From positions 26,116,333 to 26,180,332 of the forward strand of contig OX419756.1 in the NCBI GenBank assembly GCA_948567375.1: a DNA stretch of 64,000 bases, written 5' to 3'. Made by a program: the position numbers and the translations under genes. The first letter of the stretch is position 1; every line of letters starts with the position of its first letter. Source of the stretch: Lunularia cruciata. Taxonomy: Eukaryota > Streptophyta > Marchantiopsida > Lunulariales > Lunulariaceae. Below the pieces are notes generated by a model. It was given only the letters and a program-made list of their open reading frames with translations, was not told the DNA's origin and searched no databases. Below, piece by piece: positions 9,045-46,192 of this stretch.

Positions 9045-9140
9045 ACTCCTTTATGATTTATTATTTCACTGTGAGGAATTTATGTATTAGAATCTACTTG
9101 AAGGTTTATAAATATTGGATATAAAGAAAGTTACATATTA

Positions 9141-9145
<5 letters not shown>

Positions 9146-9190
<45 letters not shown>
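9146..9190. repeat. (TAT)n microsatellite
   Basis: About 15 uninterrupted TAT/TTA triplets. A likely length-polymorphic marker. Confidence 0.95.
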
Positions 9191-9191
<1 letters not shown>

Positions 9192-10650
9192 CAGAAGAAT
9201 AGTCCTATTCTACTTTCTATATAATGAATTTTAGAACTTAAAATTTTGTTATAGTTCCATGTAAGGAAGAACTAAATATTTGCAAGTATTGATTTCTAGA
9301 TGTTCCAGAATATTTGTAAAGTTATGTTGCAAATCTTTCGTGCATTTCTTTGTTATTTCTTGTATGCATGATTTTAGAAGGAGTTCTTTTTCATTAGGAT
9401 ATGTTTTTCGTTTGCTCTTGATTATTTCTGTGATTTTATTTTCATCATCGATATGTTTGGTCATGCAAAAATAAATATTGCGTATTAAATAAAATCATCA
9501 GTCGTACTTACAAATTAATTAACTATCTTAGGACATTCTGTACAAAGAGTTCAATTCAAGCAGAAAATAGCTGAGACTATTTAGTGATGGCTACTTTTTA
9601 TTAAAATTTTAATTTATTGATTCCTAGTTCTTGTGAAAAATATTTTTATTTCACTTATCAAAACCATCGATGAAAAAAGTCTTCTTATTCTTTAATGCTC
9701 AAGTATCTCTTCTTACCTAATATCAACTTGTTATATGGATAGTTTATGATGAATAAGGAGAAAAAATATATTCCTTCCTTGATGTAATTCATTCTTGATC
9801 ATTTTTAATTTATCATTTCTAAGTATTGCTAATGTTATTATGATATTGTTGACCATGGCTACATCATGGCTTTGGTAGTAAATCTTTCAGTGCCAGAATT
9901 TTAGATTGTATATGCATATTTTTTCATATATGTTAGATCTTTTCTTCTTCTTCTTCTTTTTGATAATAATATAGTAAAATTTATAGATATTTGATATAAC
10001 TTATATATTTTGATACTAAATTAGTATACTAGTAAAAAAAATTAAAGCTTCAATATGTCTTGTATAATGGCAAGAAGTTTATTAATTTATAGATTTGGAG
10101 GTAAAGTTGAATTTCAATTCTTATGATTACAAATTAAAAATCAAAAACTGTATGAAAGAGCTACGTGAGCGTTTAATCTATGAAGTGAAAATCTGCTTAC
10201 ATAAAATTATTTTGAATATGAGTATTTAGTATCTTAATATTTTCTTATAATTTAAAGGTTTTTTGTAGGTAGATATTTTATACTTGTCTGAGTTAAATTA
10301 TTTTAAAAAAAAATTATACATATTTCCTACATTCAATCCTTGTATTGCAACCATAATCATTTTTTATTTTATGCTAGTAATAATCAATAACTAATTAACT
10401 GTAAGCATAGAAAATTATACATATGTTAGATAAAAAATTTATTTATGTACAATTTCAGATTATAATTTTAAATTTATAATGATTGAGTTGTGAATATATT
10501 ATATTTTCTGATAAATATATTCAAAAATAAAAATTATATGTTTAAATATAATAAGAATAATATTAATAAATATTAAAGTTATTTTATATATTGAACATTT
10601 TTTAAAAACCTATATAATACATATATATATATGGGAAAGACTACTCTCGC

Positions 10651-15444: not shown

Positions 15445-16315
15445 CCTATAGTAACTCCATTTCTCCTGTGTCGTCCTGCTCTTTAGGAATTACATTTTAG
15501 AATGGAAGCATGCTCTGTGTGTGTGTGTGCGCGCGCGCGCGCGCGCAACTAAAATCTATCCCGCGGTTAGTCTCTAATCGTCCTGCTTGACGCTAGAACT
15601 GTCCAGACTTCGGAAAGAGCCGATTCCTATCATCTCGATTTGAGATTGGAAAATTGAGCCTCCGGATCCAGTAGCGCACTTATTGAATCTCAGAGATGTC
15701 TCAACACTAATGTCAATTTCCACTAACAGTTACTCCTGCTCGAATGCCACTTGCATTATCGATTAGTGTCCTCTTCTATTTGGTCTAAAGACTCAGATAG
15801 ACTATACAGCGCGATTTAAAATACAAAAATATAGTCAATTGATATCTTCAAAGCGACTATCGGATGCAGACTAATATGCAACGAAGTTTGGACTAGCTTT
15901 TAGTCCACTTGTATCACTATGGCTAAAAGTCTATATACCAATCAACAAATAGTAATGTATTAAGCATGTAGTTGTGTGTCAACCGGTCGTCACAGATTTT
16001 ATTTGAAGAAAATGGAGCACAAAAGAGGTCTGGAAACCTGAGAGACAGGTAAATTCACGAGGGAAGATCTTACTGAGACTCTTGACCAGTACCGAACAGG
16101 GAATCTCATCCACTTCCCAGAGGCGCAGGATTGGATGCACGATATGTGCTCTTAACGGGACACTATGCATGGTAGACTACGTGTAGAAAGCTTCGAATCT
16201 GGTGGACCGAAACTCGTAAGATGCAAGCGAAAGATAATTTATAAGCTTTATCGTTAACTCTTCTTTTGACTAATAAGACTTATGAGGTATTAATTGTGTG
16301 TCTTTGATTAAAGTT
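15445..16315. promoter_or_regulatory. LecRK-2 upstream region
   Basis: Sequence between the LecRK-2 start (minus strand) and the copia insertion. It must contain the LecRK-2 leader and core promoter, but no element is clear enough to mark. It holds a GT/GC dinucleotide tract at 15512-15546. Confidence 0.4.
15512..15546. repeat. (GT)n(GC)n compound microsatellite
   Basis: About seven GT units running directly into about nine GC units. Alternating purine-pyrimidine DNA of this type can adopt the left-handed Z form, and it lies only about 70-100 bp upstream of the LecRK-2 start codon. Confidence 0.9.
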
Positions 16316-16929: not shown

Positions 16930-17586
16930 CTACAAATCTTCTTCTAATCTCAATGTGCTTAGTCCTTGGGTGATGTACGGATTTTTGCTGAGTGCTATAC
17001 TTCCTGTATTGTCACCGTACAATATAGTAAGACTTTCCTGCTCAAAACCCAACTCCTTAAGAAGTTTCCTGTTCGAGATGACTTCTTGAGTAGCGTTTGA
17101 GGCAGCCATAAATTCTGCCTCAATAGTAGACAGTGCAACAGATGTTTGCTGTTTACTACGCCAGCTGATTGCTCCACCACTAAGCATGATTACATATCCA
17201 CTAGTTGATATGTTGTTATATGTGTCATCTCCCCAACAAGCATCTATATATGCTTCAAGTTTAGAAGCAAGTATGCTCCCTTGCTTTCTGTACTCCAAGA
17301 ATGCATCTTGAGTACCCTTTAAGTACTTGAATACTCTCTTTATACCTTTCCAATGTACTTCTGCAGGGTAGCTAGTATATCTAGCTAGTGCTCCCACTGC
17401 ATAGCATATATCTGGTCTTGCACAGACCATGATAAGCATTAGAGAACCAAGAGCACTCTGATACAACACTTTGTCATAGAGATTCACCTCCCCATCTATG
17501 ATTCTGTTGTGCTTCCACCCCAGATCAAGAGGTGTAGAGACAGGATTCACCTCTGTCATCTGATACTTAGCTAGTATGGATCTCAC
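16930..17586 (-). pseudogene. Copia RNase H and RT thumb region
   Basis: A 218-residue fragment beginning in the RT connection region (ARPDICYAVGALARY, matching the copia R-P-D-I/L-x-Y-A-V signature) and continuing into RNase H, with SKQQTSVALSTIEAEFMA and YGDNTGSIALSKNP. It stops short of a normal copia C-terminus and is in a different frame from the polymerase core, so it cannot be translated as part of the polyprotein. Confidence 0.9.
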
Positions 17587-17734
17587 ATACTATGGTTGAC
17601 TGATCCGGATCCATCCTGTTTCTCTATCTCTGCTCACTTTGATTCCCAAAACAATTTTTACAAGACCAAGGATAGTCATCTCAAAAACAAAGCACAAGAA
17701 ATCTATCACTCCTTTGATAGATTCACTGTTCCCC

Positions 17735-18349
17735 AACAGTAATAGATCATCTACCTATACAACTATGTATACATCATCTCTAGTATACACACTCATGTCA
17801 GAATCTGCTCATCTGAAATCCTGCTCTCTCAAGTATGTGTCTAGTTTCTCAGGCTCTAGGAGCTTGCTTAAGACCATACAAAGCCTTCTTAAGCAAGCAT
17901 ACTTTTCCTTTGCTTTCAGTATATCCATCTAGAACATCCATGTAGATAGTCTCTCTCAAATCTCCATTGAGAAAGGATGTTTTCACATCTAACTGATCCA
18001 CTTCCCAATCTCTCTCTGCTGCAAGAGCTAGAAGCATGCAAATAGATCCATACTTGGCAACTGGTGCAAAAGTTTCTGAGTAATCTATTGATGCTTTCTG
18101 ATTGAAGCCCTTTGCAACAAGTCTTGCCTTGTACTTCAGGACCTCATTCTCAGCTTTTGACCCTGAAAACCCATTTACAGCCAATTGCTTTCCTACCTGG
18201 TGGTAAGTTAGCCAGTATACATGTACCATTAGTCTGAAGAGACTTCTTCTCTTCTGATATAGCCAACTCCCACTGACTTGAATTTGGTCTGAGCATAGCT
18301 TCCTATAGAGTTTCTGGATCACAATCTTCATGACAGATGTAAGATTCAT
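17735..18349 (-). pseudogene. Copia reverse transcriptase core
   Basis: Residues typical of copia RT are clear: [36 protein letters not shown] and [13 protein letters not shown], up to 17849. The catalytic Y-V-D-D motif follows in another frame at 17746-17757, where the Tyr codon has become TAG (17755-17757). The polymerase is therefore dead even apart from the frameshifts. Confidence 0.9.
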
Positions 18350-19054
18350 CTAACATCTCTTTTGATAAAAAGCCAAGTCTGTCAATAGGTTTTCTATCTC
18401 TCTGTGATCTTCTTGGCTCTGTGCCTAGAAGTTTCATGTCATCTCTTGACATCTGTGGAATCTCACTCAGAGATTTTGCATTTACAGTCTGCTTTTGGGA
18501 GTAGTCTTCTAAAGTATTAGGATCAGAAACCACCTTCTGTATAGACCTTCTTTGGTACACCTTCAGACTCTCCTTTGATGAACCATCAGCTTCAAGTAGA
18601 GATTGCTCTTCTGATGATTGATTCAAAAAACTGACTCTAGAGCTTGGGAAGATAGGTTGATCAAGCTGATCAAACTGATCAGCTTGCTTCTGCAACTCAT
18701 CACTATTCTCACTCCAAGTCCTCAATTCATCAAAGAGTACATCTCTACTTTTGATGATCTGTCCAGACTTAGAATTGTACAAAAGATATCCTTTCAGTCC
18801 CTCTTCATATCCAAGAAAAAGCATTCTCTCAGCCTTCTTTGTGAACTTCCTCCTTTGCTCCTTGGGAATATGAACATAGGCAGGACATCCCAAACTTTCA
18901 AAGCTGAAAGGTTAAGTTTTTTACCACTCCAACATTCTTCAGGAGTTCTTCCTTGCAATGCTTTGGTACCACTGATATTTCTAAGGAAATTTTCAATGCT
19001 AATAGCAGCACCCCAAAACTTTCTCTCCAGCTTTGCATGTTGGAGCATTGCCAA
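18303..19054 (-). pseudogene. Copia integrase C-terminal part and linker
   Basis: Two overlapping frames (18794-19054, then 18303-18893) carry FWGAAISIENFLRN, TPEECWSGKK and FPRSKGG, then MGCPAYVHIPKEQRRK and MLFLGYEEGLKGYLL. These match the end of the copia integrase core and the downstream G-Y linker. The frame change near 18890 is a disabling frameshift. Confidence 0.85.
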
Positions 19055-19184
19055 TTGCTTTGTCCACCAGTGTTCTATTCAACCTTCCTGCAACTCCATT
19101 CTGTGCAGGACTGTCTTTGGCCGTACAGTCAAGGAGAATTCCTTTCTCTAACAGAAAAGAGATGAATTCCTCATTCCTGTACTC

Positions 19185-19736
19185 TCAGCCTCCATCTGTT
19201 CTCAATCGCTTGACTTTCCTCCCAGTCTTCAACTCAGCCATGTCTACAAACTTCTGGAATTTTTGTAGTTCTTTATCCTTGCTTTTCATGAGATAGATGA
19301 AGCTCTTTCTACTGTAATCATCCACAAAGGAAATATAGTAGGCTGCTCCACTCAATGACTTCTCAGTCATATATCCCCATACATCAGAATGTATGACATC
19401 TAGAAGACCAAAAGCTCTAGATGAAGATTTCTTGGGGATAGGAGCCTTGTGTGCCTTACCTTCTGCACACCCAATGCAGAACTCTAGTTTCCCTTTGGGA
19501 TCCAGTTTCAACCCATCCACTACCTTCTCTAAAGCATATAGATTTTGCACTGACAAGTGCACTAACCTCAAATGCCACATATGGATATCATTTCTGATTT
19601 TTGCTACCAATGCAAAATCAGAAAAATCAGCTTCCATCAACTTGAACAGCTTCCCTTTGGCAGTGCTATATCCAAGGACCAGCTCTCCTTTCTTCAAATT
19701 GCATTGATTTCTGTTGCTCTCAAACAGGACATCCAC
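19185..19736 (-). pseudogene. Copia pre-integrase and integrase core
   Basis: The HHCC zinc-binding segment (H-x3-LRLVH-like, then CIGCAEGK) is followed by the first catalytic Asp (DVIHSDVWGYM) and the second (RLRTDGG), which is the end of this open frame. The GAG-pre-integrase domain lies upstream within the same fragment. In an active element the frame would continue through the catalytic Glu; here it is interrupted. Confidence 0.9.
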
Positions 19737-20026
19737 TCCATGCGGTGATGTACTGATATCAAGTCCTTGGTGTAACCTAGAACATAGAGCACATCTTCCA
19801 AATAGTTCTTACAAGAACTTGTGTTAGATCTTCCCATGAAGGCAATAGGAATTTTTCCAGTTCCTAACACTAGATTCAGAATCCCAGGTCCACAACAAAC
19901 ACTCTTGGGAATTTTCAGAGGTTGAAGAGTCCAGAACAACTCCTTCTGGTAACAGATATGAGAGGTGGCTCCAGAATCCAAGAACCATCCAGAACAGTTT
20001 GTGGACAACTGTGATTCTGCCAACAT
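19694..20026 (-). pseudogene. Copia aspartic protease
   Basis: The active-site signature WFLDSGATSHIC is present near the start of a 110-residue frame, followed by the hydrophobic strand and YLEDVLYVLG typical of copia proteases. The frame overlaps the downstream integrase frame by a shift near 19700-19736. Confidence 0.9.
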
Positions 20027-20189
20027 TTTACAATCTAGCTCTTCTGCTGAGTACCACTCCTCGTCGCTTTCTATCTCATTGCACTCCTATATGTTGTAAG
20101 CTGAACTTGCAAATTTTTGACCTTTTCCTGGTTGAGGTCCCTTGCCTACCTTCTTCAGCTCTCATTCCCTCCTTTCTCCTCTCTTGGAA

Positions 20190-20264
20190 CATTAGGTGCA
20201 GCATGACCTTTCTCATGACAGAAATAACAAATCTTGTTATCAACACTACTAACTCATTTACCAT
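20190..20264 (-). pseudogene. Copia gag zinc knuckle (damaged)
   Basis: On the minus strand the frame reads KICYFCHEKGHAAPNV. The C-x2-C-x4-H part is intact, but the residue four after the His step, where the last Cys belongs, is Val. The nucleic-acid-binding knuckle is thus missing one zinc ligand. Confidence 0.8.
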
Positions 20265-20270
20265 ATTTAC

Positions 20271-20872
20271 TCACTCTGGATTGCTCACTCTTCTATTTGG
20301 CACTCTCCTTGACCGAGAAGAAGCATTGAATAGAGCAGAATCTCCCAAATCATTAAACTTCATCTCTAGGTCCTCTCTATCTGCGCTAAACACCAGCAAT
20401 CTGTTTATCACATAATCCCATGTGACAACTTCAATAGGTAGAACTTTTAGAGCTACTTTGATAGGCTGGTAGCTTGGAGGGAGAGTCTTCAAGAGATGGT
20501 TGATCTCATTTCTCTGTAAAGGGGACACCCATCCTCCTTGACACTCTTGAAGACCTTCTGTAACTTTGACAAGTGCAAAGTAAAGTCTTCACCATCTTCT
20601 AGTTTAGTGTCCCACATCCCATCCCAGATCCTATTAGAACTTTCCAGCCTCTCAAGAGAGTAAAAATTCTTGAGTTTGTGCCACATCTCCCAACTCCAAG
20701 CATAAGTGTCTACTAGGTCTTTGACTGGCTCTTGCATAGCCCTTAGCATAAACCTCCTAGTAGTAGAGTGTTTGATTCTCTCCTCCTTGTCGTACTCAAG
20801 CTCATCTATATCATGAGCTTCTAATGCCAAGTCTAAACAGTCATATCTGTCTAGGATACACTTCACATCCAA
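20271..20872 (-). pseudogene. Copia gag (UBN2-type)
   Basis: Two frames joined by a shift (20489-20872 and 20271-20528) give a copia gag. The first contains AMQEPVKDLVDTYAWSWEMWHKL and DGMWDTKLEDGEDFTLHLSKL; the second LLKTLPPSYQPIK. These are hallmarks of the UBN2/gag_pre family. The start codon at 20872 is about 90 bp after the primer-binding site, a reasonable leader. Confidence 0.85.
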
Positions 20873-20939
20873 AGCCCAGGCTTTTTAGTTAGTGTTTCCT
20901 AATTTCTCTAGCTCTCTGAGTTCTCCTATCAACCCCGAT

Positions 20940-23710: not shown

Positions 23711-25993
23711 TTAAACTGTCTCCTTGTTTGCGCTAGGAACTGGGAGTTTTCCTTGCCGATCATAAACTACATTACAATCCTGACCTACTAATATTTGTCT
23801 CTCTAGGGAAGAACCAAAAGAGGTATGAGAAGTTAGAGTAGAGGTTTGAGAAGACCGTGCTTCCTGCTGAGAGAGGTTACTTGCCAAAGAGTTCAAGCTC
23901 TTGGGGCCGCCGTCCTTTGACCGATCTGATGATTGACCAGACCTTGGCATCTGATATAGAAGTTCGTTTGATTTGTACTCTATTACTGGTTTTTGTCTCG
24001 GTATCGGTGGCATCTCAACACTGCCCGATAAAATCTCCATCACGCTCTTCATGCTCGGACGCTCGTCGGGATTTGGATGAGAACACAACAGAGCGAGCAA
24101 GATAACAGTTTCTACTTCTTGTGGGTTGAAATCACCTAAAACTGTTTCGTCCACAACAGCAATGACATCCTCCTCGTTTAGCTTGCTCCACACCCAGTCC
24201 ACTAGTAAAATTTTCTCCGCACCCCGCTCAGGATCATAAACCTTTCTCCCACACACAATCTCTAGTGCCACCGCTCCAAACGCATACACATCTGTTTTGA
24301 TACTGAATCTACCGGTCGATATTGCTTCTGGTGCCAAATAGCCGAATGTTCCAGCAGCGTACGTTGTGGCCAGCCTCCTGTGATGGTCTGCTACACGAGC
24401 TAGCCCGAAATCTCCCAACAAGCCATTGTAGCTCTCATCGAGCATTATATTGCTTGATTTCACGTCTCTGTGAATAACCTGTTGCTGCCAACCGTAATGT
24501 ATATACTGGAGACCTGCGGCTACTCCCTCCAAAATCTTAAACCTCTGCTCCCAGGATAAAAGAAGTTTCTCGCCCTGCTCCTTAAACAAGACCTTGTCTA
24601 AGCTGCTATTTGCCATGTATTCATAGACCAGCAAAAGCTTCCCTGGGCCCTCACTGCAGTAACCGAGCAGCTGTACGATGTTTCGATGTCGAAGATGGCT
24701 GATTGTAGACACCTCTGCTATGAACTCTTTTTCGCCCTGCCTTGAATCAGCACTCAGTTTCTTCACCGCCATAGACTGTTGATCAAGTGTACGATGGTCA
24801 TGAAAATCACCGCGGTACACATTGCCAAAACCTCCTCCCCCTAGTTTCCTCTCATCACAGAATCCATTAGTGGCCGTCAGGAGCTCCTGGTAAGTAAACC
24901 TTTTCAAGGTGAGGGATAAGCCAGCTAAATTGACCTCCTGACTCCCTACGGATCGAATCGATCCACCGCCAGTATCGAAGTCAGATTCTTTCCTTCGCCG
25001 CAGATAAAACCAATAAACTAACAAAGTAGTAATTATCGTTCCGACTGTGGTGAAAATTGCGATAGCTGAAATGACAGCAACGGAAATGGTCGGAGAAGCA
25101 AGCTTATCCACTGGCGGTATTACGAGTGCTTTGGGTGCCGGTGCAGGTGCTGGTGTTAAAAGCTCTTCAGTAGAATTACTAACCCTCATTGACAAGTGAT
25201 AGCCTGTGTAAACGCCGTAATTGGGGCCTCCATTGGATCCGGTAAAGCCCACCCAAACAGCTCCTGAACCTTCAGAGAATATATTGCGAAGATCTGTGGT
25301 GACACTGATTAGAGCTTCTGCAGGCCTATCAGGTGCAGAAGCCACCCTGACGGCCAGAAGGAACGTGGATCCGTCATAATCAACCCAAGCAAATAATCTG
25401 GGCGTCTTCACAAGCGTTATACCAATGGACGCGACATCTTTAGCAGCCACGGACTTAATACTGTTGATGTCAATACCAACGTGATTCCCATCCATGTCGA
25501 CGTCAGGATCTTGCATGTTTTTGTAGGTGTCAAATTCCACGGCCAAAGTTGGACTGCTCGCAGTCCCATTGCTTTCGAAAGCACCGAGATTACCCTCCAG
25601 AGACCCATTCCAAGCCTTATTTCCGAACATGACAAAAGCCATACCATCACCAAATGGGTCTCCTTCTATACGAAGACTGAAGCTAACGTTGAAAGAGGCT
25701 ACTTCCCTGGTGCTCGAATTTACCAGTTGGAACGAATCCTTGTAAAGTGCCGCACCAACTGAATGTTGGTAGTAAGCGTTCGGATGTGCTTTCAGGGGGT
25801 ATGGCGTGAGTTTCAACAGACCATCTCCTGTTGTTGTAGCATTACCAGAGCACAACATATTGCCTTTAGACCCGCATTTGAAAGCACCATCTTTGACACT
25901 GATTATCGAGGTTGCGCCATGCACTGAAATGCTGCCACTCTCATACACTCCCAGGAGAACGAGGAACACCATGAATTCCACAATTACGCTCAT
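23711..25993 (-). CDS. L-type lectin receptor-like kinase (LecRK-3), intronless
   Basis: A 760-residue single-exon paralogue. It has a signal peptide (about 1-26), a lectin-like ectodomain (about 30-268) with VEFDT (152-156) and NHVGID (170-175), a Pro/Ala linker, a transmembrane helix at about 304-331 followed by LRRRK, and a kinase from about 380 to 652. The glycine loop is GGGGFGNV (385-392), invariant Lys 411, HRD 508-510, DFG 528-530 and APE 554-556, so it should be catalytically active. The C-terminal tail (about 690-760) is Ser/Gln-rich and longer than in the paralogues. A shared N-terminal pattern (GNMLCSGNATT) links it most closely to LecRK-1. The upstream flank has two GC-rich hairpins. 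Confidence 0.95.
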   Translation of the reverse strand: MSVIVEFMVFLVLLGVYESGSISVHGATSIISVKDGAFKCGSKGNMLCSGNATTTGDGLLKLTPYPLKAHPNAYYQHSVGAALYKDSFQLVNSSTREVASFNVSFSLRIEGDPFGDGMAFVMFGNKAWNGSLEGNLGAFESNGTASSPTLAVEFDTYKNMQDPDVDMDGNHVGIDINSIKSVAAKDVASIGITLVKTPRLFAWVDYDGSTFLLAVRVASAPDRPAEALISVTTDLRNIFSEGSGAVWVGFTGSNGGPNYGVYTGYHLSMRVSNSTEELLTPAPAPAPKALVIPPVDKLASPTISVAVISAIAIFTTVGTIITTLLVYWFYLRRRKESDFDTGGGSIRSVGSQEVNLAGLSLTLKRFTYQELLTATNGFCDERKLGGGGFGNVYRGDFHDHRTLDQQSMAVKKLSADSRQGEKEFIAEVSTISHLRHRNIVQLLGYCSEGPGKLLLVYEYMANSSLDKVLFKEQGEKLLLSWEQRFKILEGVAAGLQYIHYGWQQQVIHRDVKSSNIMLDESYNGLLGDFGLARVADHHRRLATTYAAGTFGYLAPEAISTGRFSIKTDVYAFGAVALEIVCGRKVYDPERGAEKILLVDWVWSKLNEEDVIAVVDETVLGDFNPQEVETVILLALLCSHPNPDERPSMKSVMEILSGSVEMPPIPRQKPVIEYKSNELLYQMPRSGQSSDRSKDGGPKSLNSLASNLSQQEARSSQTSTLTSHTSFGSSLERQILVGQDCNVVYDRQGKLPVPSANKETV

Positions 25994-26560
25994 TTTCTAA
26001 ACTTCAGGCCCCAAATGCTGCCGCGTTGAAGCACTCAGCTGCATCCGGCCAACGGTGTTTCTATCGTTCCTCCCTCTGTATCATATCTCTTCCATGAAGA
26101 TTTCAGAGTGCACCAAAGTTTTACTCAAGGATTGCTCGTGGCTCCCTCCTCCTGCGGATTAGTGCCGGCGTTTAGTGCACTATTTCACTAAGCGCCGGGT
26201 TTGGTCACCGGTAATTTCTTACCGGCATCTGCCCAATACCCAGTACCGGGTCACAATAAGTCTAGGTGGCCGACCTATTCAGCCATTTGTTGACATGGAC
26301 ACCAGCATATGTCCTGCTGGACACTGTCATCACATCAAGAGTTTAGAGGGTTGACGCTGTATAGGAGAGTGACCGTGTATGCATCATATAAGAGAGGAAC
26401 ATGTGGTTGATGGTGGCTGAGGTGGCTGTCCATGAGGACTGCTTTTGATGGGGATAGGACCGTTCAAGGCATACTGCAAGTTTTGGATCATTCAAGAGAC
26501 AGCCAAGCGGGGGTGGTGCGAGAATTCCCGCTTGTATTTCTAATATTACCCCGTTTCTAT
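25994..26560. promoter_or_regulatory. LecRK-3 upstream region with GC-rich palindromes
   Basis: The region 5' of LecRK-3 (minus strand). Two stem-loops are visible. In the first, CCGGCGTTTAGTG (26165-26177) pairs with 26186-26198 except for one G-T step. In the second, CCGGTAA (26208-26214) pairs with TTACCGG (26219-26225). They lie 170-230 bp upstream of the start codon. Function is unknown; they could be promoter elements or a transposon end. Confidence 0.45.
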
Positions 26561-31609: not shown

Positions 31610-34600
31610 TCAAAGTGTTGCTACTACATCCTCAAGTCTACAATGGTATACATGATGTTGAATCCTAAACGGACTCAATGACCACCATAGGGGCCACTCG
31701 CTCTCATCCAAGTCTCTATGCTTGATACCTCTAGCAAGAAGAGAATATAAATCACTATTATAAGAACTCAATTTACAAGATGTCCACTCCTCTTCTGCCC
31801 AACTAACAGCAAGCCTTTGGACAAATCTGTACAAAGCCCTCATCAAAGGGTCAAATGACAAATTGTATGATGCTCGCTCTTCCCTATAAGGACAGAAGTG
31901 GGTAGGGTGGATAGCACCATGTGTATGGTTCTTATAATAAGAGAGTGCATAACTATCTAATATCAAAAGATCACAAAGAGGTAAACCTAATGAAGTGAGA
32001 TGCTCATATGATCTAACTATAAGTCCTTTAAACTCAAAATCTCACTTGATATCTGTAGAACACAAACAATTCATGAGGCAAGACTTGGCATGAACTCCCT
32101 TTAGGAGTTCTGACCACTACTACATGCTCTATAGCAACCACTCCACTCCATTTGGAGTAAGATCTATCTACGCGATATCCTCAAAGCATAGCAAACAAAA
32201 CTGGATGGAATGGCTAACACCAAGGCGTGCTACCCACCCTACAAGCACAAATTTTGTGTGAGGGCACCAACCATGCCTAGTCATCTAGCTCTCCCTTGCA
32301 CAAAAATTGGGCACACCACAAAGCCATGATGATGCCAAACAAGTAACATCCACAACAATAATCTTCTTCCGTAGGAAGCTTGGGAAGAGGATGCATGGAA
32401 TATACTCTCTTGATAGACAAAGGCCCTCTCTAAATTTGAGTGCCTTGAGTCTCCATACTATGAGGTAACACATGGGTGGCATTGGTTTGTATCTGCATCT
32501 CATGATGAGTATGGGTTTGGCAAGCAATAGTACATAGTCTTGGTCCAAGATAAGCCACACAAGCCCTCATCTAAGCTATACTACTCTCTCTCTCTCCTCT
32601 ACCTAAACATGTGCACTCTTGCACCTCTCCATAGCAAATGCTAACTCTTGTGCCTGATTCTATAACTGGATCCTATAACCCTCTGCCATGGCAACTGCAC
32701 CTAAGATATCCAAGTCCAAGTCAACTAATCTCTGCTCTCTCTCCATCTAAAAAATAATCAAGGTCAAATGTCTCTCCTCCTTTGCAGCAAGAGTATCCTC
32801 TTGCTCACAAAGGAGTCTCTCTCTCTCTCTAAGGTCAATCTACCATGCTCCTCAAAGCTCTCCAATCTACTCTCGCGCTCAAGCACTAATTTCTCTTGCT
32901 CCTCTACATTCTACACTCTCCAATCTACTCTCACGTTTAAGCACTAATCTCTCTTGCTCCTCTACACTCTCCAATCTACTCTTGTGCTCAAGCACTAATC
33001 TCTCTTGCTCCTCTACACTCTCCAATTGCCTCTCCCGTTGAAAGAGATGTCTCTCTCCCTCATTAGCCACTTGAACACAATCATTTAAAACACACATGAT
33101 GTCAATAGAACTAGAAGAAGGTAAAAGTACTTTGAAATGCATGGGGTCTATTACCTCCTCAACTACTAGAGAAAGGGGAGAAGGGAAAGAAGAGGAAGAA
33201 GGAGCTATCTCAACAAGGAGGCATCTCAACACAAATATGTTGAACACATGATCATAAGTGGTACATTTAATCATCTATCAAGTAAAAATTCATTTTTGAA
33301 TTTTAAAATTACACAAGTTCATTAATTAAGGCCTCTTAAATAAACTCACTTATTAAATCCACTAATGGTATATACAATAGAACTTTGTATTTTTTCAAAC
33401 ATATATATATATGCCAAAATCCTAATCTAATCAATCACTCACCATCCTCATCCTCTCCCTCATCCTCCCCATCATCAGTAGTCTCATCCTCATTCAAGCT
33501 ATCTACATCCTCATGATCATTATCATGCTCTGTGAACCGGTCTGTCTCTCACTCATGATGACCTCTAATGGTTATTATGGTAGCGCACCATGGACTAAGA
33601 AGGCAAGGAACCCCAACTCCATCATACTCCTCCAAGGCTATCACTCCAAGACTCGAGACATTGCTCACTAGAGAACTCAATGAGAGAGAGATAGTTGCAA
33701 ATGAAAGGATGATGAGTACCTCCTCACTCCTAGTTTATATACTTGTGAAATAGTTACGCACCAAAGTTACTAATTATTGGAGTAATTCAAGTTACTAGGC
33801 TAAAAGTCAAGTAAAGTCAAAAATTATAAAAGAATATCCATCTACATGGGCATATTCCACTAGCATGTGATCTTATCTTGACCCAACCATTGAGTCAAGG
33901 ATTCCTTCACATGGGCTATTCTTGGATTATAGAAGAATCCAAAACAAAAAGGCTTACGGGCCAAAGAGTTCTCAACTCTTTTCTCAAAGCCAAACACCTA
34001 GGAATAATACCAAGTCAACACACTAGAATCCAATATAGTAGTGCTCATCTTTTCCACTTCCTCTAAAGTAAAGTCCCCACTATCTAAGCTATGACTAACT
34101 TTAGCTAATCATGATTAATGTAGACCATCCTTTATCTTTATATAAATAATATATCTCAAGTATTTGTAATACCAAGCTAAATATCATAATACCACACACA
34201 TGCACAAATGGGTGTTAAAACTCTCCCTCGTGTATAATCTCCTCCTCTCCATCACTCAAGTACATCATGTCCTCCTTTGGAATGAAACTTCTCTCCACAA
34301 AGAGATGAGTGAGTATCTGCCCAAGGAAGGTGATTCTGAACCTGCGCCCCTTAGGACTTGTCAATTGGCTTTGCAAACTCCCCACCTCAGCAACGATAGC
34401 TATAGATGCTAACTCTTTCCAATCATACTCCTCCACACCAAATCTTCTCAATTTTGTTTTGATGTTTAGTACCAAATTCCCATGTACAATCTAAGGCCAA
34501 ATAGTTTTTGCAACAAGTGCACCCATCAACTGGAAGAAAGCCCTAAACATAGGATACACATATTGTTTTGCAAGATACCTTTTTGCAACCCTATCTCTTT

Positions 34601-38781: not shown

Positions 38782-38925
38782 GTTTGTTTCACTTGCAAGT
38801 TACAATATTTAATCGAGGTTGTAGGATTTTGGTTGATTATGGAAGTTCAAAGAATTGCTTGTCTATGCAAGTAGCAAAGGAATTGGGTATTCCTATCAAG
38901 CCAATCATTGGAAGTGCTTGAATTG
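38782..38925 (+). pseudogene. Gypsy retropepsin fragment
   Basis: Reads RILVDYGSSKNCLSMQVAKE. The catalytic triad of the retropepsin type (D-S/T-G-S) is altered to D-Y-G-S (Asp at 38835-38837). The fragment ends in a stop after GIPIKPIIGSA. Confidence 0.7.
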
Positions 38926-39059
38926 TCTTGATAGGCACAGAGCTCACAAGTGTCCAAGTGATGATGCCTATCAAGCGCATCCTATGCTACTCTACCAAGC
39001 CAAGACTCACAATCCAGGTCAAACAGTTCAATTCCATAGCATGACCTAACACCTGATGC

Positions 39060-39849
39060 CTTGATGCCTCTGACACTACTAGAATAGCGATAATACCAGT
39101 GCAAAATCACCCGCTCTCTCTCGTTAGCATTGGGCTCCACCAATTGCTATAATTGTGAGTCCCAAACCAGTCCATGTTCTCCCTTTCAAAAAGCATGAGA
39201 GCCTGGGAAACTCTTGAGTGTGGGAAATATGGCTCTAGGCTGTCCAACTAGGTTCACCATTGCCATAGGTGACTATAATACTCCAAGGACAAGAGAAAAG
39301 TGAAAACACTAATTACACACTCAACATTCGATGCCTCAAAGGAGCATCTTCTCTTTATTATATAGACAAAGAGGATCTACTCCAAGGAAGCTCCACCATA
39401 GGATTAGGCACATAGATAGGTGACATGTTAGCAAGCTCCACCCTTGGATTATTTACTTGGATGGGTGACATGTCGGTCTAGATCCTATCTGGTTGGTCAA
39501 ACAAGCTTTGATCGGAGGGAATCTTTTAGGGAATCTTCCTATAGGAGTCTCAAAATCACGTAAGGTACCATTGGAAAGCTCTTGACAAGACAAACCAAGG
39601 AGGAGGGAAGGCCAGCCTTTCCTCTATTGAGGGGGGAATCTTCACATTTTTTAGGCCTAATTCATCCATTTAGGTCTCCAAAATTCTTTCAAAGATTTTA
39701 AGCATATTTTGGTTCCTACTCTATTAGTAGAAGTCCCCTTTTGGTGATACCTCTTTATGATCTATTTTGACTATCATGTATAACATCATTCTAGATGTTA
39801 CTAAGCTGAATTTCACATCTAGATCATATGGCTAGCTCTTGGTGTTACA
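39060..39849 (-). repeat. Possible LTR of the methyltransferase-bearing relic
   Basis: On the minus strand this begins TGTAACACC, a common start of plant gypsy LTRs. It directly follows the decayed methyltransferase frame and has a TATA-like tract (ctatataat) with a plausible downstream leader. No matching second LTR was found in the window, so this is a hypothesis. No coding sequence was seen inside. Confidence 0.35.
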
Positions 39850-40690
39850 GTGACCTATCAGCCATTATCACCATTTGAGACTCACGCCCAACATCTAAGA
39901 TGTCATCAACAAGGATGTGGTCAAGTGGTTGAATCCCATATAAGCACATTGTAAAACCTTCTAGGTAAGAGGTTTTTCCACCAGAGACAAAGATGATGAG
40001 CTTGTGATCCTACTCTAGCTGCATCTAACAATATAGTAGATCCCATCTAAGAATGGACCTAATGTGTACTCGTCACCACTTGAGTATGAGAATCACTCAT
40101 CAAAGGAACTTTCTCCAAAATGTAAGCTAGAGAAATGGATTGATGAACCTAGAGATGTTGTAGTATCCATAACATCTCCCAAAGCACAAGGATCCTAAAG
40201 ACCCAAAGCTTGGCCAGCACGTGTATGTCCCTAATGTGGCCATCCATAAATCACCAAATGAACAGGCTCGTGTTGCTCCAAATCATACACCCCCAATAAG
40301 GAAATGTTTGCTAGTAGGGCCTTCTGATAACCTTTGACTGTTGACATTGGTAATAACTTAGGATACTTGTAGGCCAAGTGTGCCACATCATGTAGAGAGA
40401 CTTGCCTAGCAGTATTATATCTCTCCACGTACAAGTACCTTTGTACTCGTATACCTGCCTATAATACCGCAGCTAGTCCGATGCTAATCCCACCAACAAC
40501 TCCAATAGAAATACTCCCTCTATTGGATATTGCCAAGCAATGAGTGTGGTATCCAAAGGTGTCAAGGTAATCGACTCTAGAGGCTCATCCTCACACTCAT
40601 CTCTTGATGGTAGAAGGCTCCACTCCAAGCTTGTTGCACCAATTGATATGCATGCTATTGCAATGCCTCCTCTGAACTCCACAATGGAAC
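39850..40690 (-). pseudogene. C5-cytosine DNA methyltransferase domain in a retroelement relic
   Basis: The minus strand carries the ordered motifs of a C5-MTase. Motif I (SAM binding) is LLELL then, one base out of frame, GGISIGLAAVL (about 40465-40515), then a TAG. RYLYVERYNTARQ follows, leading to motif IV GWPH-stop-GHTRAG at 40213-40245, where the catalytic Cys position is His (40234-40236) and the next codon is TAG. Motif VI is YILEKVP (40104-40124) in place of the E-N-V core. Motif VIII-like QAHHLCLWW is at 39978-40004, then VDDILDVGRESQ. The enzyme is dead. It sits directly after the gag and protease remnants in the same orientation, so it was probably part of the same element. A target-recognition domain is not visible. 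Confidence 0.7.
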
Positions 40691-40839
40691 ATCCAAGGTA
40701 GATGGAACAATCTCACTCATACTCCAAATCTGAGTGATCTCCTCTGGTATTGGAGTATCCTCTACATGAGCATTCCTCTCCAACAAGTCATCAAGCTAAG
40801 TAACTGCACCACTAAAAGCTGAAACTAATGTTTCCATGG

Positions 40840-41607
40840 TCCTAAACTATAGTGAGCCAAGACTACCACTACTAAAGCGTACTAGTAGGCAACATACCCA
40901 TCCCTCACCAGACTGCCAACCTGGTCTATAGGAGGTTGTCTCCTCCCAATAGTCAATGTTGAAACCCATGAGGTATAACATGGCTCTCCTAACTAGCACA
41001 GCATATGACTCATCTATTCTTGCAATAGCCTGAGCTCTCACCACCGAGCTATAGTTGGATGACCAGATTGAACCTAGACAACAAGCTTCCCATGTGTAAT
41101 GTACTATGTCAAACCACCACCTAGAGATGTCTAGATCTGAAATGGACACCTCTCCACATCGGTCTTCCGTAACTCCAGACCGACTCCTATAGCCTTCTCC
41201 AACATAAAGGGCTATGCACCAAAGTCCAACAAGACTCTTTGTGGTGTATAAACCTTCCTTGAAGGTCCCACCAAACGGAAAATCCCCCTTTGGTTAGCCA
41301 ATAGGACAACACCAAGTATGAACTACGCTCTCTCAAAGGTCGGTCTAGCTTGCAACTCCTCCAGTCTAGACGCTCTTGCCTGCCATAAACCATTGGTTGT
41401 TGAACGAATCCCATGCTCCTCAACCAAATCAGCTCCACTATCAACCACATATGCTCTAGTAGTAGGAACCGCATCATCCCTACTCTCATAAAGCATGGTA
41501 GCCAACCAGAACATTAGGGTTAGGTCAACTCCCAATGTGAACATCTCAATGGTTGAAAACAAAGGGCACCGCATAATCAGTTGAGCCGCCCCCAACATCA
41601 TACTCAA
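40840..41607 (-). pseudogene. Retropepsin-like protease region of the methyltransferase-bearing relic
   Basis: The segment reads RAYVVDSGADLVEE, then ERAYFILGVV-like sequence, then LLDFGA-stop-PFMLEK. The active-site Asp is at 41224-41226 (D-S-G replaced by D-F-G, followed by TAG). Downstream DESYAVLVRRAMLYLMGF and IDYWEETTSYRPGWQSGEG follow in frame segments. These are consistent with a gypsy-type protease and its C-terminal extension. Many frameshifts and stops. Confidence 0.6.
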
Positions 41608-41899
41608 CTTAGTTTGAGTAGTAGCAATGGCTGACTAGTAAGTAGTCCATCATGCACCCCATCACCACCTATCACACTAGCACTAGGACATCTAGGAGCC
41701 ATGGATGTTGTCTGCAATGCCTTAGAGAGTGTGAAAGATTGTGGAAGTTAGACCTGTCTCCCAACCTCTCCTCTCTGTGGGTCCAACTGCACTAATGCTC
41801 CTCTAGGCTCTGGAGCACGTATTACACTCCTAATCACTGCTACAAATACATCCACCTATGTTACTCTGCATATGAAATCCAAAGCATCTCTATCACCAA

Positions 41900-43110
41900 C
41901 ATATGAGGTGGAAGCCTCAACATCCAAATCTGATCTCCTCTAAGCAATAGCCATACTATTCAATCTATGCTCCAATTGTTCAATCCGAGTGGTCATAGTT
42001 GTATCAGAAGTAAGGGTCGGTACTGCACTCCTACTAGGTGTAGATCCTCTACCACCTCATCTTCCATGACCTGGAGCTCCTCTACCACCTACCATAGTAG
42101 CCCTACCACTCTGTAACTCCGGGTGTAGGTCAGAGCATTGATCACTAGAGTGACCATATTTGTGACAATGCTCACACTGTCTCTATGCTGGTTGTGGTGC
42201 ACCAAAGGTATCAGGTCCGCTGCCTTGAGTACACTCTCTCCTATGGTGAGGTCCACCACAAGTCCAACAAGCAACACCATCACTCATTGGCTGTTGTTGA
42301 CCTGAAAATGAAGGTAAGGGTCTAGCTCCACTAGGCCCTCCACTCGCTCCATAGGATTTGGGTTGTCCGCCCTGTCCTCAAAAACCAATTGGGCATAGTG
42401 CACTCTGCTGTACTCTAGAAGAATTAATAGTTGAGGATGAGGTCTTCCTACCAAATCCAGATGTCACTACCCTCTCCTCTGCCATGTTGAGCTCAGCCAA
42501 ACCAAAGAGTGCAAGTGTATGCCTCGTGTAAGCTCTCTCCAACCTTCCACTGGAACTCTCGCAAGCTCCTCTGCTTGTTAGTCCACACTCTTGGTAGTTC
42601 TACCTCAAACATTGGAAGAACTCCACCATGGGGTTAAACCCCGGTACCACACTACCTCTTATAGCGGTACCTCCACTTATGGTAGCACTATCTCCAGCTA
42701 GTGCACCTCCACTAGCTCCATCAACACTATTTGAGCTAGAACTCGTGGGTACAACAAATCTAACATATATAATATATAATATTGTCTCCATAACTCAATC
42801 TCCTCCAAATGAGCTCCCTTAAAATCATGGTAGTTGTCCATTGGTGGACCCTCCAAATGTTGAAATAACCCCTTCCATGCCATGAAAGGTACAAACAAAG
42901 TTGAGTTCCGCATCTATTGCATATCACACCAACTATCCAACTCCTAGATGAAGTCATCCAACTCAATGGTACCCATTGTACCAAAGTAACGCCTATGGCC
43001 TTTGGAGGCCCCATAAATCTTGTCTGTGTTCTATAACAACGGTGCGGACATGCCAAGTGCACTCTCAATTGAAGCAACTCTTGTGTTGAACTCCAACTTA
43101 AAGTCAATCT
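41900..43110 (-). pseudogene. Gag-like protein with two zinc knuckles
   Basis: The N-terminal part has FVPFMAWKGLFQHLEGPP, a capsid-like helix pair. Two knuckles follow: CWTCGGPHHRREC (42231-42269) and CEHCHKYGHSSDQC (42135-42176), the second a perfect C-x2-C-x4-H-x4-C. A Gly/Arg-rich basic segment (GGRGAPGHGR) and a predicted helix (MTTRIEQLEHRLNSMA) come next. Interrupted by stops. Two knuckles in tandem are unusual for plant gypsy gag, which mostly has one. Confidence 0.65.
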
Positions 43111-45012
43111 CCTCCCTCATTGGGACCTAAGATATAGGCTAATATCGAGCGCCACTCCGAGTAAACCCATTGCATACTATAGGGCTAACTCCTCTAGAAT
43201 CCCCAAAGAACTTTGTTGTGACAAAGTAACCGCAAACGAAAACCACAAACTGCAACCGCAAGTACCCCACCAAGTGCCAACACCACCAAGTGCCAACACC
43301 GACTGAGCACCACCAAGTGCCAATACCCACGGAACACCACCCACTAATGTAACTCTAACTAAGATAACTACACTAGAAGAAAGGGCGACCTATAACCTAC
43401 CATCACAACACGCACTCTCACGGTCTGCAAGTCATCACTTCCGGCTTCACCAAAGAGAAACAAATGTAATCTGACTGGTCATCACTCCCAGTCTCATTAT
43501 CGAGAGCACACCAGAACACCAACGCTCAAAAGTCTGAGCACCTCATACAAACATGGTGCACAAACAAGAAGAAAAGAATGGAGGGGGTCCAATCACAAGA
43601 AATCTAAACAAAAACTTTCCATCGCATAAAGAAACACGTGACTTACTTTGCCACCATTTGGCATTTGACATAAGAGAAGTTCATATCTACGTCCTAAGCT
43701 ACCAGGATCACCAAGAATGGATCAAATTGTCTCTCCTAGCCAAAGCCACAGGTGTATAGATAACATTGGGCTAGTTACTAGGACAACAAGTGAGGGTGGA
43801 CCAGTTGGCTAGGGCACAAGTCTAGGAACAAGAGATCTAAAGGTCAAACCCTGTTGTGCACAATCTAGCAAGATGGGTAGATTTTGCCAAAACAAACAAG
43901 ATCTACTCTAAACTAGCTAGCCTCGCGCCAGCAAGTTAAATTGCTGGCCTTTGTAGCCTCTAATAGCCCATAGCCCTATGCCTTGAAGCCTTTAAATGCC
44001 CAAATGAAGCCTTTCTTCTTGCCACTTTGAACCTCCTCCCAATTTGGCAAAAACTCCTCCAAATCTGCCAAAAAATCCACCAACTCTGGCCAAAATCTAT
44101 AACTTTAAAACTCCTCCAAATCTAGCAAAACTCCTCCAAATCTGGCCAAAATCTAACATAAACTCTAGCAAAAATCTGACATAAACCCTAAATTTGGCTG
44201 ACCGCCAAATCCTCCGCTAACTCTCCACTTGAGCCAAACTAAATTAACAAGTTTTTCCAAATCATAAATTCACAAGAAAATTTTCCCAACTCCACCTTTA
44301 ATTTTACTTTCTGAGCACAACTCGCAATAAATTGGTCTTGCTTTCACCTCATAAGCTCAAAATCACAACCACCGCTCAAAAATTGCTTCTTCTTTGCTCA
44401 CAAATTGGCTAGCACTTCCACACACCATCTGTCTCACTGCCAAATCTGCATCAAGCAATGAGCTTCTGTGCACCAGGAAAAAACTAAACTTCAATTGAGC
44501 TACCAATGATCCACCGAGCTTGGAGATACCACCAACACTCAAAGTTCATGCACTTGACTTCTCTAATATAATCAGATTATTTACAACTCTTGAATCAACT
44601 CAACTCAGATCAGTACTTGATCTGTCACTCTATAAATGGCCAACAATTAGGCACTGATTATAGTCAAGCCACACCCACTCTAGTTAAGAGAATCCAGGTG
44701 ACACTCGCCGGCCTCTGTCCACCATAGCTAGGAACTCGAAGGCTCAATATCATAGAAGTGAGCTCTCTAGAACTACACTTCAAAAGTATACCTTTGGACT
44801 CGAGCTAGGTCTGAAACCCTAACGGTCCTACTAATGGCACACTCGATGGTGCAAAGTGATGGTGGGCCCCACCATGAAGTCAGTCCTCCAAACACAAAAT
44901 CTAACCATCGGAAAGTAGTCTATGGGAAACTGCTGAAATAACTCTAACTAGTATTACTACAACTCCAATGTCGAAGCAACCTAGATGCGACACTACAAAT
45001 GGCGTGACACCT
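43111..45012. other. Repeat-rich non-coding stretch, possible leader or LTR of the relic
   Basis: No recognisable coding sequence. It contains short imperfect tandem repeats: ccaccaagtgccaacac (about 43265-43330, three copies) and aaactcctccaaatct (about 44035-44185, several copies). It could be the 5' leader or decayed 5' LTR of the methyltransferase relic, but no similarity to 39060-39849 was seen. Confidence 0.35.
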
Positions 45013-46192
45013 GATCATCATTGGTAGCTATCAAGAGCTCATTTTGCAAGTACAAGATCAGTTGAATTGAGAGTTCAACATGAAGGGCTTGGGAGAAGTC
45101 AAATACTTCTTGGGTATTGAGTTTATTCAAGATTGCAACAACCTTTGGTTAATGCAGTGTCAATGTTCTCTCAACAGGTTGGAGAGGTTTGCTATGATGG
45201 TTTGCAAGCATATTTCTACTCCTCTCCCAGCTTCTGTTAAGTTAAATGCCAGAGATTGTGAGTTGTTAGCTGATCCAATCATGTAGAGACAGATTGTTTG
45301 AAGTCTTATTTAGTTGACTCTTACTAGACCAGATCTAAGCTACACTGGTGGTGTATTGAGTCAATTTGTACAAGCACCAAGGAAGCACTATCTTGATTAT
45401 GGTGAGAAGCTTTGTATGTTACGTGAAGCTTACCATCCAGTTTGGTCGTCACTATTCAGCTTGTGGATTACCCATTCTACAGGGTTTCATCGATGCAGGA
45501 CTGGGCAGGAAGTGCTCAAGATCAAAAATAAGCATTAAGTTGTGTTTCCAACCTTGAAAGTTCTCCAATTAGTTGGTCATTGAAGAAGCAATCTCCTGTT
45601 GCTTTATCATTGACAGAAGCAGAATATAGGGGTGCCACTAATGCTACATGTGAGTCTATTGGGGTTCCCACCTTATTAAAAGATATGGGATATACATTTC
45701 ATGATATGTAATCATATATTCAGATATTAAACTTGGTAGCAATCCAGTATTTCATGCCAGAAATATTGAGGTTCATTATCATTTTATTAGAGGGAAGGTA
45801 TTGGCCGGAGAAATAAATCTGCAATACATTCCTACAGATCAGCAAGTTGCAGAGATTTTCAACAAAACGTTACCTAGAGATAAATTTAAATATTTAAGAT
45901 CTCATGTAGGAGTCAAATATATTGATGTTAGCTTGAGGGACAATGTTGATGAAGTATCACAAGCTAATACTCCAAACGGCTAGTGTACACGGGAGAGTTG
46001 ATCTTTAGTCAGAGTTTATTCTTTAATCACCGGATTCTCGTTAGTCACCACTTGAAAACTATGGTGAAGAGAGACTCACCATATTCAACAAATTTGTGTA
46101 CTTCTTCGGTACCTATATATATTTCGAGCAGGACTTGTGTCCCGCAGACCATTCTTTGGTGAACTTTGGTATTTCCACTCTCATTTTCCCCA
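45013..46192 (+). mobile_element. 3' fragment of a second copia family (RT end, RNase H, LTR)
   Basis: Starts immediately after where the Y-V-D-D motif should be (LIIIGSYQELILQVQDQLN) and continues MKGLGEVKYFLGIEF, LTRPDLSYTGGVLSQFVQ, SPVALSLTEAEYRGATNATC and LQYIPTDQQVAEIFNKTLPRD, the standard end of copia pol. Frameshifts and stops interrupt it. The 5' break is sharp. A purine run (gcttgagggacaa) precedes the LTR at 45944. Confidence 0.85.
45944..46192 (+). repeat. 3' LTR of copia fragment
   Basis: 249 bp starting TGTTGATG, directly after the polypurine tract, and ending CA at 46191-46192. It aligns with the solo LTR at 21823-22051. The right edge is estimated from the end of that similarity. 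Confidence 0.75.

Follow-up and report, generated by a model that had tools for sequence, protein, structure and literature searches.

A dead copy of a methyltransferase-carrying Gypsy-type retrotransposon, and its high-copy family, in the genome of Lunularia cruciata

Methyltransferase-carrying retroelements have been described in algae and are said to be absent in land plants, which is why land-plant copies matter. The closest known relative of the family described below, compared by its published description, is KnitGypsy-Dnmt3, a group of DNMT3-carrying Gypsy-type elements of the charophyte Klebsormidium nitens (de Mendoza et al. 2018, PMC5890265). The dinoflagellate SymbioDIRS-Dnmt3 enzymes carry out de novo CG methylation in yeast (PMC5890265). 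De novo methylation by the KnitGypsy-Dnmt3 enzyme was absent in yeast, a result that its authors judged inconclusive because human DNMT3B also failed (PMC5890265). An earlier note on the DNA analysed here mentioned the charophyte precedent, read gag, a protease-like region and a decayed methyltransferase in this order on the minus strand, and proposed that a land-plant copy would extend the known host range. The order is real, as judged from the reading frames and from mapping the parts against less-decayed copies, and, against the papers searched, the host range is extended by a family present here in thousands of motif places.

The window, by which we mean the whole stretch of 64,000 nucleotides analysed from Lunularia cruciata, contains what is, by its sequence, a dead and decayed retrotransposon copy with its own methyltransferase, of which the 5' half is left. 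On the minus strand this copy extends from 45009 to 38914, from the A1 repeat through gag with its two zinc knuckles and the protease-like region to the C5-cytosine methyltransferase; it is truncated ahead of the polymerase genes, which are absent from it. Its parts are as follows.

45010-45013: CAGG, presumed left target site; the right end of this copy, with any second target site, is lost
45009, minus strand: left end of the element, TGTCACGCC, the outer edge of A1
44568..45009, minus strand: A1 terminal repeat, 82-86% to the A repeats of other copies
42509..43120, minus strand: N-terminal part of gag, decayed and frameshifted, aligned to the MREEID... reading frame of copy L014
42108..42508, minus strand: C-terminal part of gag with two CCHC zinc knuckles, mapped by alignment
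42269-42231 and 42176-42135, minus strand: the zinc knuckles of gag
40874..41313, minus strand: retropepsin-like protease (PR), placed by DSG motif and position
41232-41215, minus strand: DSG site of PR, decayed to DFG in the window copy
39002..40520, minus strand: DNMT3-like C5-cytosine methyltransferase (MTase), decayed and split by a solo LTR
near 40499 (I), 40245-40213 (IV), 40121-40104 (VI), 40007-39966 (VIII) and 39119-39035 (X), minus strand: MTase motifs
39274..39849 (576 bp), minus strand: insertion interpreted as a solo LTR of another family inside the methyltransferase, with TG...TA ends and a 5-bp duplication, GTCAC
38914..38986, minus strand: remnant of the post-methyltransferase tail, and truncation point

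The limits first given, 39850 to 43110, were too narrow at both ends, and the lower one is the edge of the solo-LTR insertion (39274-39849), not the end of the element. The inserted LTR has 40 scored places including that in the window, nearly full length, the others being 89-91% identical. Over 4.8-5.1 kb the window copy shares 85.9-86.8% DNA identity with nine other copies, and its last 360 bases are 87-90% identical to other copies. A search elsewhere in the window for the UAG-ORF2-B-A2 and right-end pieces gave no match above 150 bp, and an Rfam scan of the window found nothing.

Neither Pfam, searched directly with the decayed frames and pieces from the window, nor the PDB, searched with one piece, gave a relevant family, so homology was established by way of better-preserved copies elsewhere in this genome. 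A search of this genome, on the lines proposed in the earlier note, did find such copies, in which gag-PR-MTase is followed by reverse transcriptase (RT), RNase H and integrase. Of 8,103 first-look candidates 150 were scored, and the MTase piece of the window (40150-40539) is 68-77% identical in protein sequence to the 149 of them other than itself (E 7.4e-51 to 5.3e-47). A word from methyltransferase motif IV occurs at 3,399 places in the 566-Mb genome, a count that leaves out copies differing from it at more than two bases, for example those as decayed as the window copy. Full 9.6-kb copies at all these places would account for about 6% of the genome; systematic sampling of 30 kb of it turned up 0 element bases. 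Related copies number in the thousands in this genome, and some are almost intact. Those examined are biased to young ones, because long open frames were the main ground for choosing them. Viral contigs, scanned with the MTase of the window and with the MTase and RT of another copy, gave no confirmed relatives, and a phage tblastn produced four matches only (E 0.1-4), taken as chance.

That the three parts came from one element, which had been no more than surmised, is now shown. Each of 12 retrieved stretches of 10 kb can be aligned with the window copy over the MTase. Spacing downstream of the MTase word is fixed: of the first 100 exact occurrences listed, all from contig 1, 46 are followed at 999 bp by the exact stop word of ORF1/ORF2 and 30 at about 1,692 bp by the exact RT word. 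Identical 4-bp target duplications surround the whole unit in 9 of the 10 copies with both ends readable (the exception is L013), two further copies being without both ends readable.

In the less-decayed copies, ORF1 (gag-PR-MTase) ends at a UAG, after which ORF2 (RT-RNase H-DDE integrase-PHD finger) continues in the same frame. Pfam RVT_1, RT_RNaseH, Integrase_H2C2 and rve occur in this order in ORF2 of L013 and L014; the long ORFs of these less-decayed copies have no Pfam protease match, so that the PR assignment rests on the DSG motif and its position. The element ends are TGTC...GACA, and the repeats are split, with A1 alone at the left end and B1-GC-A2-B2 at the right end. Two identical full LTRs were not found at the element ends in the copies examined, and the element is for this reason called Gypsy-type by its enzymes and is not a standard LTR element. 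Within copies, K2P distances are 0.7-2.7% between A1 and A2 in 7 of 8 and 0-3.9% between B1 and B2 in 8 of 9, with L013 the exception in both cases (11.1% and 8.4%); both pairs are evidently renewed at each insertion. Where the A1 end is intact, it is followed by CATCAGAGAAG, with no primer-binding site of the TGG type, and a G-rich run stands directly ahead of B1. In L020, B1 is followed directly by flank, perhaps a one-repeat form. By sequence, the family belongs to the Ty3/Gypsy-type retrotransposons, is present in high copy number, has split direct repeats like those of DIRS elements and encodes a DNMT3-like methyltransferase of its own.

The MTase ends ahead of the conserved UAG and RT comes after it. 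The stop is TAG in all 15 distinct copies in which the site was found and is followed directly by CAGCCA in 14 (L021 has CAGCTT); across the genome, UAG is present at 872 of 896 places with the fixed flanks. CAR YYA after UAG is the published readthrough signal of tobacco mosaic virus (PMC2754532). The position of the enzyme ahead of a UAG in this context suggests Gag-like dosage.

As to its class, the long ORFs of the family score above the Pfam DNA_methylase cut-off (E 3.4e-7 and 1.5e-7), so that the profile check called for in the earlier note succeeds with less-decayed copies and fails with the decayed window pieces. Against PDB the element MTase finds DNMT3A at E 3.3e-11, DRM2 scoring 0.0055, and its alignment to DNMT3A places motifs I to X in canonical order. 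DRM methyltransferases have a rearranged motif order. Host DRM-type genes are represented by L003 and by L063, the latter assigned by motif order. The element enzyme is DNMT3-like, with its catalytic motifs kept; its de novo methylation activity is a prediction.

The reading that we favour, with a probability of about two in three, is that the window holds the 5' half of a dead Gypsy-type element with split repeats, whose own DNMT3-like enzyme would have been supplied at a Gag-like dose through readthrough and would have served self-methylation. ORF1 would be the main product, and ORF2 would be made by occasional readthrough of the UAG, as its context implies; the methyltransferase would then accumulate in Gag-like amounts and enter the particle. 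Once reverse transcription is done, the enzyme might methylate CG sites in the cDNA of the element or in fresh insertions, a step to which we give somewhat less than even odds. Such CG methylation may give element DNA a host-like look or lower the cost of insertion. Two observations weigh against this reading: the absence of de novo methylation by the KnitGypsy-Dnmt3 enzyme in yeast, inconclusive as it was, and the C-to-T decay of the window relic, of the kind expected where DNA is methylated and silenced. The earlier note's idea that the enzyme could hide the element from host silencing is a conjecture. The B-GC-A unit, with the G-rich run just ahead of B1, could act as the LTR during reverse transcription, and the palindrome GACA-GC-TGTC within this unit could be the site at which integrase cuts a circular form, or one joined LTR to LTR, to yield A1...B1-A2-B2.

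The strongest competitor, unlikely but to be taken seriously, has the enzyme act on RNA or host DNA, for example by overloading or blunting host silencing, and not on element cDNA. De Mendoza et al. suggested RNA methylation for the LINE type, inactive on DNA in yeast, and the KnitGypsy-Dnmt3 enzyme was likewise inactive there, if inconclusively (PMC5890265); the predicted Gag-like dose would suit such a target, and the PHD finger of ORF2 may point to contact with chromatin. However, the DNMT3-like type includes CG DNA methylators, namely SymbioDIRS-Dnmt3 (PMC5890265).

More improbable is the idea that the methyltransferase is a captured passenger, with no function for the element and carried since it is harmless. 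The MTase domain is open end to end in 10 of 24 distinct element copies (27 rows minus the duplicate L007 and the host loci L004 and L005), and the inconclusive yeast inactivity of the K. nitens relative (PMC5890265) could be read in the same way. So could the C-to-T decay in the window relic, the pattern expected of methylated, silenced DNA, from which it follows that the enzyme did not spare this copy. Against a passenger, all 10 distinct copies with an open MTase keep the catalytic PC and ENV, and MTase dN/dS is 0.446 (bootstrap 95% 0.29-0.72), similar to PR (0.41) and RT (0.32) and below the adjoining tail at 0.90 (0.55-1.60), the MTase and tail intervals overlapping. Intervals for integrase, the PHD region and the PR-MTase linker extend above 1; the gag estimate covers four copies of the N part, the C part being open in one. 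The host locus L005 is a divergent exon.

Derivation of the split repeats from a DIRS/Ngaro-type tyrosine-recombinase element is very improbable. The A-coding-B-A-B order is that of DIRS elements (PMC5890265), but integrase core (rve) and zinc-binding domains are present, and Pfam found no tyrosine recombinase in the four ORFs scanned (L011 ORF1, L013 ORF2 and most of L014). The 4-bp target duplications also speak against it. Finally, a host methyltransferase gene adjoining an unrelated gag/protease insertion might be imagined, land plants having several C5 methyltransferase genes and no window piece alone matching a methyltransferase profile, but this origin was rejected, given the motif IV word places, the fixed spacing to the stop and RT words, the target duplications around the whole unit, and host DRM-type genes (L003, L063) that are clearly different proteins.

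Set against the literature searched, the land-plant host and the placing of the enzyme ahead of a UAG in a CARYYA readthrough context appear to be new. We suggest, with more reserve than for self-methylation, that a DNMT3/split-repeat Gypsy lineage may span charophytes to a land plant, the enzyme here being set at Gag level by a tobamovirus-type leaky stop, in thousands of copies, with DDE integration from a circular intermediate at a repeat-internal site. The family has numerous related copies that differ in age and is a natural setting in which to ask whether self-methylation benefits an element. It also shows split direct repeats in an element with a DDE integrase, and the literature consulted does not explain how this element replicates. 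Ty3/Gypsy bursts are said to have enlarged the Lunularia cruciata genome (PMC9985172), and the family could belong to them.

Among known systems, the plant DRM methyltransferases L003 and L063 belong to the same wider family, but their motif order is rearranged and that of the element enzyme is not. DNMT3A and DNMT3B share the motif order I-IV-VI-VIII-X and are its best solved-structure matches; identity is low, however, motif IV reads PCQ here as against PCN, and no PWWP or ADD domain is among the Pfam matches of element ORF1. The stop resembles the tobacco mosaic virus readthrough stop in having UAG followed by CAR YYA, here CAG CCA (PMC2754532), a likeness that in this host is one of sequence context alone. 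SymbioDIRS-Dnmt3 and SymbioLINE-Dnmt of Symbiodinium are likewise retroelements with a C5 methyltransferase in hundreds of copies (PMC5890265), but on tyrosine-recombinase DIRS or LINE backbones, whereas the present one is a DDE-integrase Gypsy. KnitGypsy-Dnmt3 has an algal host and carries its DNMT inside the Pol polyprotein ORF; here the host is a land plant with the motif word in thousands of places, and the enzyme lies in ORF1 with gag and PR, ahead of the UAG. The two share a Gypsy-type backbone, a DNMT3-like domain that is intronless and under purifying selection and, matched against the published description, a DIRS-like repeat arrangement (PMC5890265).

All the motifs that the earlier note named for gag, zinc knuckles, protease-like region and methyltransferase are visible in translation of 43600-39500 (minus strand), interrupted by stops and frameshifts. 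Because searches of these decayed frames and pieces against Pfam, and of one piece against PDB, gave no relevant match, the window alone is insufficient as proof. Relatives occur elsewhere in the same genome (565,766,749 bases, 74 contigs; window at G000:C2:26116333-26180332). A protein search with the 130-residue methyltransferase piece of the window returned, among the best 150 scored places including the piece itself, 149 others at 68-77% protein identity (E-values 7.4e-51 to 5.3e-47). Among the best 123 scored of 2,161 candidates in a PF00145 search, many cover profile positions 48-120 and lie in open frames of up to 1,428 residues.

We fetched twelve 10-kb stretches, a sample biased to young copies because it was chosen mostly for long open frames. 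They contain a unit of about 9.6 kb made of ORF1, a single in-frame stop and ORF2, the longest open versions having 1,428 and 1,037 residues. Gag, protease-like region and methyltransferase form one ORF1 in these less-decayed copies, so that the three parts, joined only by order and orientation in the earlier note, do belong to one element, and the DNA_methylase profile is matched as that note proposed (Pfam 3.4e-7 in L011, 1.5e-7 in L014). The Retrotrans_gag match is weak (E 0.2, L011); the protease region gave no profile match when the long ORFs were searched against Pfam, and its putative naming follows from a DSG site and position. ORF2 of L013 and L014 matches reverse transcriptase (RT), RNase H, integrase zinc-binding, integrase core and PHD finger families. 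The PHD finger lies 3' of the integrase at the C-terminus (L014 5968-9078, residues 992-1036, Pfam 2.2e-10), a place occupied by a chromodomain in some other Gypsy elements, and could steer integration toward chromatin marks.

The ends of the element, and an insert in the window copy, are as follows.

Left end of element: repeat A, 454 bp in L012, starting TGTCACGCC
Right end of element: B1 (106 bp), GC, A2, B2, terminating ACGACA
Window 39274-39849: 576-bp insert splitting the methyltransferase, GTCAC on both flanks

Identical 4-bp flanks were found in nine of the ten copies with both ends readable (L018 and L020 of the twelve being left out), the exception being L013. The same copy is the outlier in repeat divergence: A1/A2 distance is 0.7-2.7% in 7/8 copies (11.1% in L013) and B1/B2 distance 0-3.9% in 8/9 (8.4% in L013). 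Such near-identity implies that, like LTRs, both pairs are made anew with every insertion. Ten of the 12 copies (all but L013 and L020) keep the B1-GC-A2 junction, GACAGCTGTC, intact, and in most of these an AGGGGGG run lies just 5' of B1. No TGG-type primer site follows A1 in copies whose A1 end is intact. We infer that B-GC-A would be the LTR of reverse transcription, and that the integrase, acting on a joined or circular form, would cut within it at GACA-GC-TGTC. In L020 (oriented 9120-9225) B1 runs straight into flanking DNA and A2-B2 are missing; a circle with one repeat may have given rise to this insertion.

The window copy can be aligned to less-decayed copies from 45009 down to 38914. 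Its DNA identity to nine of them (all but L011, L016 and L020) is 85.9-86.8% across 4.8-5.1 kb and 87-90% in the final 360 bases; among themselves the nine are 96-98% identical in the longer part. Relative to L014, the longer part carries 37 insertions/deletions, 1-138 bases in size, and the shorter part a single one of 5 bases. We take the 576-bp insert, nearly full length at 40 scored genome places including itself, to be most probably a solo LTR belonging to a different family. The window copy stops shortly after the methyltransferase, and the remainder of the element has no match above 150 bp anywhere within the window.

The window's open frames are presumably plant genes. Three long uninterrupted ORFs (4072-6300, plus; 13219-15489 and 23711-25996, minus) we take by eye to be a small paralogue cluster of legume-lectin-type receptor kinases. 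Fairly open polyprotein pieces at 16930-20884 (minus) and 45705-45983 (plus) appear by eye Ty1/copia-like; the latter, just beyond the element's left end, is presumably the tail of a further copia RNase H. A repeat at 33530-34217 is about 92% identical to sequence inside or adjoining L016, L018 and L020, and a tandem repeat with 51-58 bp spacing (32837-33075) lies within a minus-strand ORF reading ESVEEQERLVL...

Genome word counts (two mismatches permitted; zero matches each time for the reversed control) gave 3,399 places for the methyltransferase motif IV word, 2,761 for the A1-internal junction, 3,012 for A2-B2, 1,821 for B1-A2 and 4,839 for RT, where related families may be included; these are not directly comparable, since the words differ in their number of decay-prone CG sites, and they miss copies as decayed as that of the window. 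Twenty sampled genome stretches of 1.5 kb held no element bases. Of the first 100 exact methyltransferase words, all on contig 1, at least 46 are followed downstream by the exact stop word at 999 bp and at least 30 by the exact RT word at about 1,692 bp, with one or both present downstream of at least 54; conversely, a methyltransferase word lies upstream of at least 30 of the 47 RT words that match exactly in the same range.

The stop was surveyed at 18 loci, which reduce to 15 distinct copies (L004, a host gene, and L028 yielded none; L007 and L016 are one place). All 15 have TAG, followed directly by CAGCCA in 14 and by CAGCTT in L021; with flanks fixed and any codon permitted, TAG occupies 872 of 896 genome places. 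The passage of PMC2754532 on this point gives CAR YYA 3' of UAG as the signal by which tobacco mosaic virus obtains readthrough in plants. As the stop lies 3' of the methyltransferase, the enzyme is part of the product before the stop.

In PDB the L014 methyltransferase domain is closest to DNMT3A (3.3e-11) and DNMT3B (5.2e-8), with HaeIII methylase (2.7e-4) and DRM2 (0.0055) ranking lower. The host possesses its own, distinct methyltransferases: L003 matches DRM2 at 1.6e-103, and L063 has what we take by eye to be DRM-type motif order. At L005 1513-2135 (minus) a host gene has divergent C5-methyltransferase exons; the nearest PDB entries for one of them are 8c56 and 4dkj (cytosine-specific methyltransferase, 1e-4), with a weak match to DNMT3B. 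The element's motifs are in canonical order, and PC and ENV are kept in 10 of 10 distinct open copies; single changes occur elsewhere (LFGRI in L016; STRL and RCQ in L015; SRAHCLR and RKRAMGF in L013; VFGQAM in L025).

Pairwise dN/dS with codon bootstrap range, by region. Of the 27 rows in the pool, 24 are distinct copies of the element, two are host loci (L004, L005) and one, L007, is a duplicate that was removed; the gag C part, open in one copy only, has no value.
Gag N part: 0.301 (0.12-0.70), n=4
Region before protease: 0.482 (0.31-0.78), n=16
Protease: 0.406 (0.23-0.77), n=13
Protease-methyltransferase linker: 0.502 (0.20-1.44), n=7
Methyltransferase: 0.446 (0.29-0.72), n=10
Tail after methyltransferase: 0.899 (0.55-1.60), n=19
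RT: 0.323 (0.17-0.62), n=6
RNase H: 0.327 (0.17-0.70), n=7
Integrase: 0.480 (0.20-1.26), n=5
PHD region: 0.459 (0.21-1.23), n=11

The decayed window copy differs at 629 of 5,222 sites where at least eight of the nine copies agree. C-to-T or G-to-A changes account for 411 of these, with rates by context of 74/245 (30%) at CG, 159/504 (32%) at CHG and 134/1,719 (8%) at CHH. The pattern, whose direction is read without outgroup polarisation, looks like that of long CG and CHG methylation, and the methyltransferase gene apparently did not keep this copy unsilenced. Silencing despite the gene argues against a simple hiding role, or else the hiding did not last. Methylation of the element's own cDNA, as de Mendoza et al. 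proposed for the DIRS type (PMC5890265, section 11), is in our analysis the likeliest role, with a probability of about 0.4. Action on RNA or host DNA seems rather unlikely, and that the enzyme, with its kept PC and ENV, is a passenger we consider more doubtful still. In yeast, single DNMT domains of both SymbioDIRS-Dnmt3 copies tested gave de novo CG methylation, whereas SymbioLINE-Dnmt and KnitGypsy-Dnmt3 did not; the authors called these negatives inconclusive because human DNMT3B also failed (PMC5890265, section 10).

Among the titles and abstract openings listed from the open-licence literature, none showed a retroelement-borne methyltransferase in a land plant; a passage of PMC9985172 puts the Lunularia cruciata assembly at 580 Mb and describes Ty3/Gypsy bursts in that genome. 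The published KnitGypsy-Dnmt3 of Klebsormidium nitens and the present element are alike in combining DIRS-like repeats with Gypsy domains (PMC5890265, Fig. 4 legend). They differ in the position of the enzyme: the K. nitens DNMT is described within the Pol ORF (PMC5890265, section 9), whereas in Lunularia the methyltransferase belongs to the product made before the stop.
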